Assembly: GCA_016866785.1 (NCBI GenBank)
Contig: VGLH01000036.1
Location: 1-33,466, forward strand
Direction of reading: 5' to 3'
DNA: 33,466 nucleotides
Source of the DNA: Candidatus Poribacteria bacterium
Lineage (GTDB): Bacteria; Poribacteria; WGA-4E; GCA-2687025
Below the pieces are notes generated by a model. The model had not been told where the DNA came from, searched no databases, and saw only the letters and a list, made by a program, of their open reading frames with translations. Below are positions 15,527-15,913 of this stretch, in pieces. The position numbers were made by a program, and so were the translations under genes. The number at the start of each line of letters is the position of its first letter. The stretch's first letter is position 1.

Positions 15527-15913
15527 ATGTTGCATACAGCCGAGTTCATCGCCGTCAGTGCCGCCGAGAACCGACGCCGCCGGTATCGGATCGTTCTGAT
15601 GGTTCCGACCGAGCCGGGAGAACCGTACCGGATCGTGACCCAGTGGGGACGCATCGGCGGACGGCTGAGACGACGCGAAGAGCTGATCGCGACACGTGCC
15701 AGCGCACTCGACCGTCTGACCCAGCGCCTTCAAGAGCGACGCTCACGAGGCTACCTGCTGACCCAACTGTCCGACGGACACCCATTATCGAAATGGCTCG
15801 AGGAAACCGACTTCCCTTCCGCGCCGACCAACGGCGTCCGCCAACTGTCGCTCTTCGACGTCGCCGACGATGAGGAGCTCGGCGTCGGATCGCCTCAACT
15901 CACGTTGTTCTAG
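15527..15913 (+). CDS. Small WGR-domain protein with two beta-clamp-binding motifs
   Basis: A 128-residue protein. Residues about 5-80 form a WGR domain: two beta strands, then Q39-W40-G41-R42-I-G-G and a basic stretch RLRRREE, ending in RSRGYLL. WGR domains occur in PARP-family proteins and in bacterial MolR-type and stand-alone proteins, where they contact nucleic acid or DNA breaks. The tail holds QLSLF (106-110) and QLTLF (124-128, the extreme C-terminus). Both fit the canonical sliding-clamp-binding pentapeptide QL(S/D)LF, separated by an acidic linker. This suggests a replication- or repair-linked adaptor. The ATG at 15527 lacks a close ribosome site (GGGAG is about 17 bp away). The end overlaps the convergent flavoprotein gene by 14 bp. 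Confidence 0.75.
   Translation: MLHTAEFIAVSAAENRRRRYRIVLMVPTEPGEPYRIVTQWGRIGGRLRRREELIATRASALDRLTQRLQERRSRGYLLTQLSDGHPLSKWLEETDFPSAPTNGVRQLSLFDVADDEELGVGSPQLTLF

Follow-up and report, generated by a model that had tools for sequence, protein, structure and literature searches.

The window (the whole analyzed stretch of 33,466 nucleotides) contains a gene for a small WGR domain protein with two candidate clamp-binding pentapeptides in its C-terminal tail (Table 1). The ORF encodes 128 aa from an ATG start, with an in-frame stop a few codons upstream and an open frame of 136 aa. Its coding status is indicated by full-length alignment to homologues from other genomes, and its GC content at the three codon positions is 0.69/0.48/0.73. 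The gene stands by itself: a multihaem cytochrome gene lies upstream on the other strand, and on the other side a gene for a pyridine-nucleotide-disulphide oxidoreductase overlaps the WGR gene tail to tail by 14 bases. The WGR proteins had no match to defense systems (PADLOC) or to phage families.

Table 1. Coordinates of the window gene and its parts, and of the other loci discussed in the text.
Feature	Location	Strand	Basis or remark
Gene of the 128-aa WGR/clamp-motif protein	window 15527..15913	+	stop codon included
WGR domain, residues 9-77	window 15551..15757	+	Pfam PF05406 and predicted fold
Central WGR motif, W40-G41-R42	window 15644-15652	+	sequence
GHPLSKW segment, residues 84-90; short helix 88-93	window 15776..15796	+	alignment and AlphaFold2 model
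Predicted disordered tail, residues 103-128 (26 residues)	window 15833..15910	+	pLDDT < 50 throughout
Candidate clamp-binding motif 1, QLSLF, residues 106-110	window 15842..15856	+	sequence; QLRLF and QPALF of relatives aligned there
Acidic linker DVADDEELGVGSP, 13 residues, 111-123	window 15857..15895	+	sequence
Candidate clamp-binding motif 2, QLTLF, residues 124-128, C-terminus	window 15896..15910	+	sequence; QGFLF-R or QLSLF-stop in relatives
Divergent WGR-fold gene pair	L003 944-1411 and 1465-1881; L004 likewise	- and +	WGR intact plus two QxxLF in one gene; W and R missing and QLSLF-stop at the end in its partner
Helix-turn-helix and coiled-coil protein genes near WGR copies	L003 1878-2663; L004 521-1468; L022 8567-9289	-; +; -	simple-repeat-derived stretches
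Type I-C cas5, csd1, cas7	L020 2631-5949		~0.7 kb from the G004 WGR pair
Y-family polymerase-like gene, then DnaE2-type error-prone polymerase gene	G000:C60:1-4510 (L106)		
QLAFF-stop end of a large ORF	G000:C38:588-605 (L011); same end on G000:C176 (L013)	-	near clamp motif
Short WGR protein, second phylum	L109		QLLLPL
Short WGR protein, second phylum	L110		QLLLPF, C-terminal
Short WGR protein, second phylum	L114		QLTLSF
Short WGR protein, second phylum	L129		QMSLPF, C-terminal, in the next frame of a frameshifted copy

The Pfam WGR profile (PF05406) matches residues 9-77 with 29.9 bits, the curated cut-off being 22 bits, and the W-G-R motif is intact. In an AlphaFold2 model built from six related sequences, the block means of pLDDT are mostly 73-92 across residues 1-100. 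When this model was compared with PDB structures by Foldseek, ranks 1-18 were all occupied by WGR chains of PARP1, PARP2, and PARP3 (probability 0.98-1.00), with the best E-value just 5e-3. Because of these three results, the folded part of the protein is predicted to be a WGR domain, as the first-pass annotation had proposed, and the pentapeptides are placed in a flexible tail. Between the domain and the tail, the HPL..W residues of the GHPLSKW segment are invariant among family members.

The WGR domains of PARP1, PARP2, and PARP3 have the same fold and the W-G-R motif and form a DNA-break binding module; in PARP2 and PARP3 they are the elements responding to 5'-phosphorylated nicks and ends (PMC4081085, PMC8190142). 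Unlike these enzymes, to which it shows 12-19% identity in structural alignments, the window protein contains no catalytic or regulatory PARP domain and has a clamp-motif tail. WGR is the sole Pfam match in its 128 residues; with no ADP-ribosyltransferase catalytic domain, it is not a DNA-dependent PARP.

The established bacterial clamp motif is QL[S/D]LF or QxxLF, and QLSLPL is known as a tight-binding peptide (PMC12309361); clamp motifs are usually placed at the C-terminus (PMC4549789, PMC9690074). In the window protein, QLSLF and QLTLF stand exactly where they had been annotated, the latter forming the last five residues. Both lie in the segment predicted to be disordered, where they would be accessible to a clamp. 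Short linear motifs usually reside in flexible tails. The linker between the motifs had been described as acidic, which is correct for the window protein and does not extend to its relatives: in the WGR copies of genomes G004 and G005 the linker has the same length (13 residues) but is not acidic.

The argument that two matches in one tail are unlikely by chance also held. In 200,000 shuffling trials of the 34-residue window tail with its own composition, at least one QLxLF appeared in 0.3%, two QLxLF in none, and two QxxLF at a frequency of 8.5e-5. The background set comprised 789 ORFs (307,185 residues) from about 1 Mb of the source genome, the window gene being left out because the overlap filter preferred a longer ORF on the opposite strand. 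This set contains three instances of QLxLF, with approximately 2.2 expected by composition, and one of the three belongs to a relative of the window protein on contig C137. No ORF of this set has QxxLF (including QLxLF) at most one residue from the C-terminus or two QxxLF among its last 45 residues. Genome-wide, the DNA pattern for Q-L-x-L/F-F-stop had five matches, with QLxLF-stop only in the window gene. The large ORF on contig C38 that ends in QLAFF-stop, with the same end on contig C176, looks like the C-terminal portion of a helicase of the UvrD/AddA type.

A profile search of 85 genomes of the phylum found the protein family in three genomes only, all from the window's own family of genomes. 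The six members are the window protein, the C137 paralogue, and a divergently transcribed pair in each of G004 and G005. The five relatives share 25-39% full-length identity with the window protein, and their tails barely align except at the motifs; thus, judging by the sequences, the motifs are what is retained in the family. All six members carry at least one QxxLF, and three carry two. The C137 paralogue has QLRLF. The WGR copies of G004 and G005 have QPALF and QGFLF, the latter one residue short of the C-terminus; the motif-initial Q residues are 18 residues apart in the window protein and equally in these copies from a second genus. In their partner copies, W and R of the WGR motif are gone, but the predicted structure is still a WGR fold, and QLSLF forms the last five residues. 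PF05406 does not match the two W-less copies and scores three relatives at 14.5-17.9, below the cut-off of 22. When G004 is compared with G005, the terminal eight residues KAEQLSLF differ by three silent codon substitutions without any replacement, and neither QPALF nor QGFLF differs. Conservation among homologues had been suggested as a check on the motifs: all five relatives keep a clamp-motif match, and retention of WGR with loss of the pentapeptides was not seen within the family. The two divergent genes of each pair could work together.

The cognate beta clamp DnaN is encoded on contig C66 of the same genome. Its alignment used clamp chain 6amq_A (366 residues), whose numbering is taken as that of E. 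coli. Among the residues that we take to line the peptide pocket, R152, L155, T172, L177, P242, and M362 are identical, and two positions carry the changes V247I and V360L. With most positions identical, the cognate pocket looks ordinary by alignment. Putative clamp binding by the window protein is well supported at the level of sequence. The genome itself provides no positive control for this motif, because neither the DnaE2-type polymerase on contig C60, the only PF07733 match of the assembly, nor the Y-family-like polymerase preceding it contains QxxLF. The first-pass annotation had further suggested that the two motifs fill both pockets of one clamp dimer. This is the weakest part of that reading, because half of the family has only one good motif, and the 13-residue linker, which presumably reaches at most about 50 Å, seems too short to connect the pockets of one ring.

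Proteins outside the family provide a wider comparison. A PF05406 search in 291 genomes of another phylum yielded 23 WGR matches. The C-terminal tails of the long WGR proteins in these genomes are free of the clamp motif, but its hexapeptide form occurs in four short ones (Table 1). In all four, Y or F replaces W of WGR, as is common among the WGR domains of bacterial PARPs (PMC5966428). The hexapeptide arises by chance in 0.3-1.8% of shuffles per tail, and the four proteins are mutually related, so they do not represent four independent events. The frameshift in L129 lies inside the WGR domain, and the downstream frame still ends in QMSLPF-stop, which indicates recent decay or a sequencing error. 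A fifth short protein (L122) has a weaker match, QLPLLG.

The stand-alone WGR proteins of Ti-type and Nostoc plasmids are likewise short and located on mobile DNA, but the clamp-motif tail is absent from the three Nostoc and two alphaproteobacterial (rhizobial-type) plasmid proteins, none of which has a C-terminal QLxLF or hexapeptide. Because the second phylum has hexapeptides and yet these plasmid proteins are tailless, the clamp tail is, as far as can be read from the proteins themselves, a recurrent but not universal addition to WGR proteins. The tails of the two phyla reflect either common descent or convergence, and they may be convergent. The tailless rhizobial-type proteins (approximately 85 aa; L062 and L063, from Pelagibacterium and Agrobacterium plasmids) are encoded near traG and contain QPTLFGG in the WGR hairpin, just before the WGR motif. 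With its match to QxxLF, QPTLF might act as a clamp motif inside the protein or have a purely structural role.

The window protein itself has no match in phages and none on plasmids. The DNA pattern WGR.G-30-GY-tail-QLxLF gave one match in IMG/VR and 16 in GTDB contigs, none with a frame carrying both motifs; this pattern admits only pentapeptides and one spacing and misses known relatives, so absence is not implied. Two other viral patterns gave four and zero matches, the four again without a frame carrying both motifs. The single IMG/VR tblastn match looks like QueE and was discarded, as was a weak match in G085, which has stop codons within and for which a follow-up search was empty. There were no matches in 40 genomes of another phylum and no WGR match at all in 133 genomes of a further one.

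Both the domain and the motif are known, and their combination is apparently undescribed. In a literature search outside which most subscription papers lie, no paper was found that contains both 'WGR domain' and 'beta clamp', and 'WGR domain' occurs together with 'sliding clamp' only in a cancer review on PARPs. This is in line with the first-pass annotation, which had named no described protein of this kind. MolR and the WGR-DUF4132 proteins share the WGR domain (PMC8533742) but are long and multidomain. The same QLxLF or QxxLF, often C-terminal, is found in PolC, transposases, and SocB; there it rides on a polymerase, a transposase, or a toxin, whereas the window protein has a WGR domain and two motifs 18 residues apart.

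The explanation that we favor, with moderate confidence, is a small clamp-tethered adaptor that joins the beta clamp to a DNA nick, end, or primer junction. The N-terminal WGR domain would bind DNA, most likely such a site with a 5' phosphate, as the WGR domains of PARP2 and PARP3 do, and the flexible tail would dock through its QLxLF peptides into the hydrophobic pocket of the clamp. The adaptor would then keep the clamp, or a clamp-bound enzyme, at this site; alternatively, it may take the WGR domain to freshly replicated DNA with its many nicks. The second motif would raise the local concentration for re-binding or hold a second clamp rather than bridge one ring. As part of this explanation, the family was probably spread by mobile elements, and the window copy would then have settled in the chromosome; the relatives' contigs are short draft pieces. 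An adaptor had already been proposed in the first-pass annotation, and this proposal is supported in part; the filling of both pockets is not. The predicted WGR fold and tail disorder agree with it, as do the conservation of the motifs in six of six members despite the divergence of the domain, the identical 18-residue spacing, the ordinary cognate clamp, and the hexapeptide form in the second phylum, which in one case lies past a frameshift within the domain. From these data we infer clamp binding, DNA-end binding, and the pathway that they would serve. Several observations speak against the adaptor. The family is small, with six sequences in one family of genomes and four in another phylum; the tailless Nostoc and rhizobial plasmid proteins show that WGR proteins do not generally have this tail; one paralogue has retained the motif after losing W and R, which means that not every member requires DNA-end binding; and no conserved repair-gene neighbor was found across the family copies.

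The genomic setting of the relatives suggests another, rather unlikely scenario, in which the protein is an accessory of a plasmid or mobile element and recruits the host clamp for replication or maintenance of this element. A precedent is TrfA of RK2, whose contact with the clamp is needed at oriV (PMC4980987). TrfA likewise has a clamp motif on a plasmid DNA-binding protein, but it is the initiator itself and contains winged-helix domains in place of WGR. The C137 paralogue lies approximately 1.8 kb from a Rep_3 initiator without a visible QxxLF, on a contig that also encodes an integrase-family recombinase, a type I methylase, an Xre-like antitoxin-type protein, and a helix-turn-helix/coiled-coil protein. 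The G004 and G005 pairs adjoin an HTH_17/coiled-coil gene that is similarly built, although homology to the one on the C137 contig is not established. Tailless WGR proteins are encoded beside tra genes on rhizobial plasmids, and GC3 of the window gene is below that of its neighbors (0.81-0.90) and near that of the plasmid-like C137 copy (0.71). However, the pairing with Rep was seen once and is not tight, and the window copy has metabolic genes around it, no replicon being seen in its vicinity. The plasmid or mobile setting of the relatives, like the motif-bearing paralogue without W and R, was absent from the first reading. The coiled-coil proteins near the WGR copies hold stretches such as NERTSERT, SEVSSE, and TDRPTD (Table 1). 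Type I-C cas genes are located near the G004 pair, and a CRISPR array there was rejected, as no direct repeats were found between the pair and the cas genes.

It is very improbable that the protein blocks the clamp and slows replication like the toxin SocB, which occupies the same clamp pocket (PMC9690074), with WGR serving as a scaffold or regulator. The small size, the two motifs, the mobile setting of the relatives, and the Xre-like antitoxin-type gene near the C137 paralogue would fit an inhibitor. At the same time, the window copy has kept W-G-R, no antitoxin partner was seen adjoining the window gene, and the divergent partner in G004 and G005 also bears a clamp motif and so would not neutralize the first protein. 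The least probable explanation, that the pentapeptides are not clamp motifs and the tail binds some other partner through short hydrophobic peptides, is in line with QPALF and QGFLF fitting only the looser QxxLF but is opposed by the occurrence of both known clamp-motif forms in two phyla, the C-terminal placement, and the predicted disorder.

A broader form of the adaptor explanation can be put forward only tentatively. In at least two phyla, small adaptors may have recurrently coupled a PARP-type DNA-break reader to the clamp through tail peptides, resulting in a clamp-borne sensor of nicks or ends that does not rely on ADP-ribosylation; some genomes would encode it as a divergent pair in which one partner lacks W and R. 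WGR domains have been studied almost only in PARPs, best known from the human enzymes. For stand-alone bacterial ones, the clamp tail provides a concrete and cheaply testable partner. It would tie the recognition of nicks or ends to replication proteins with no need for ADP-ribosylation, and it would suggest a reason for the recurrence of WGR genes on plasmids.
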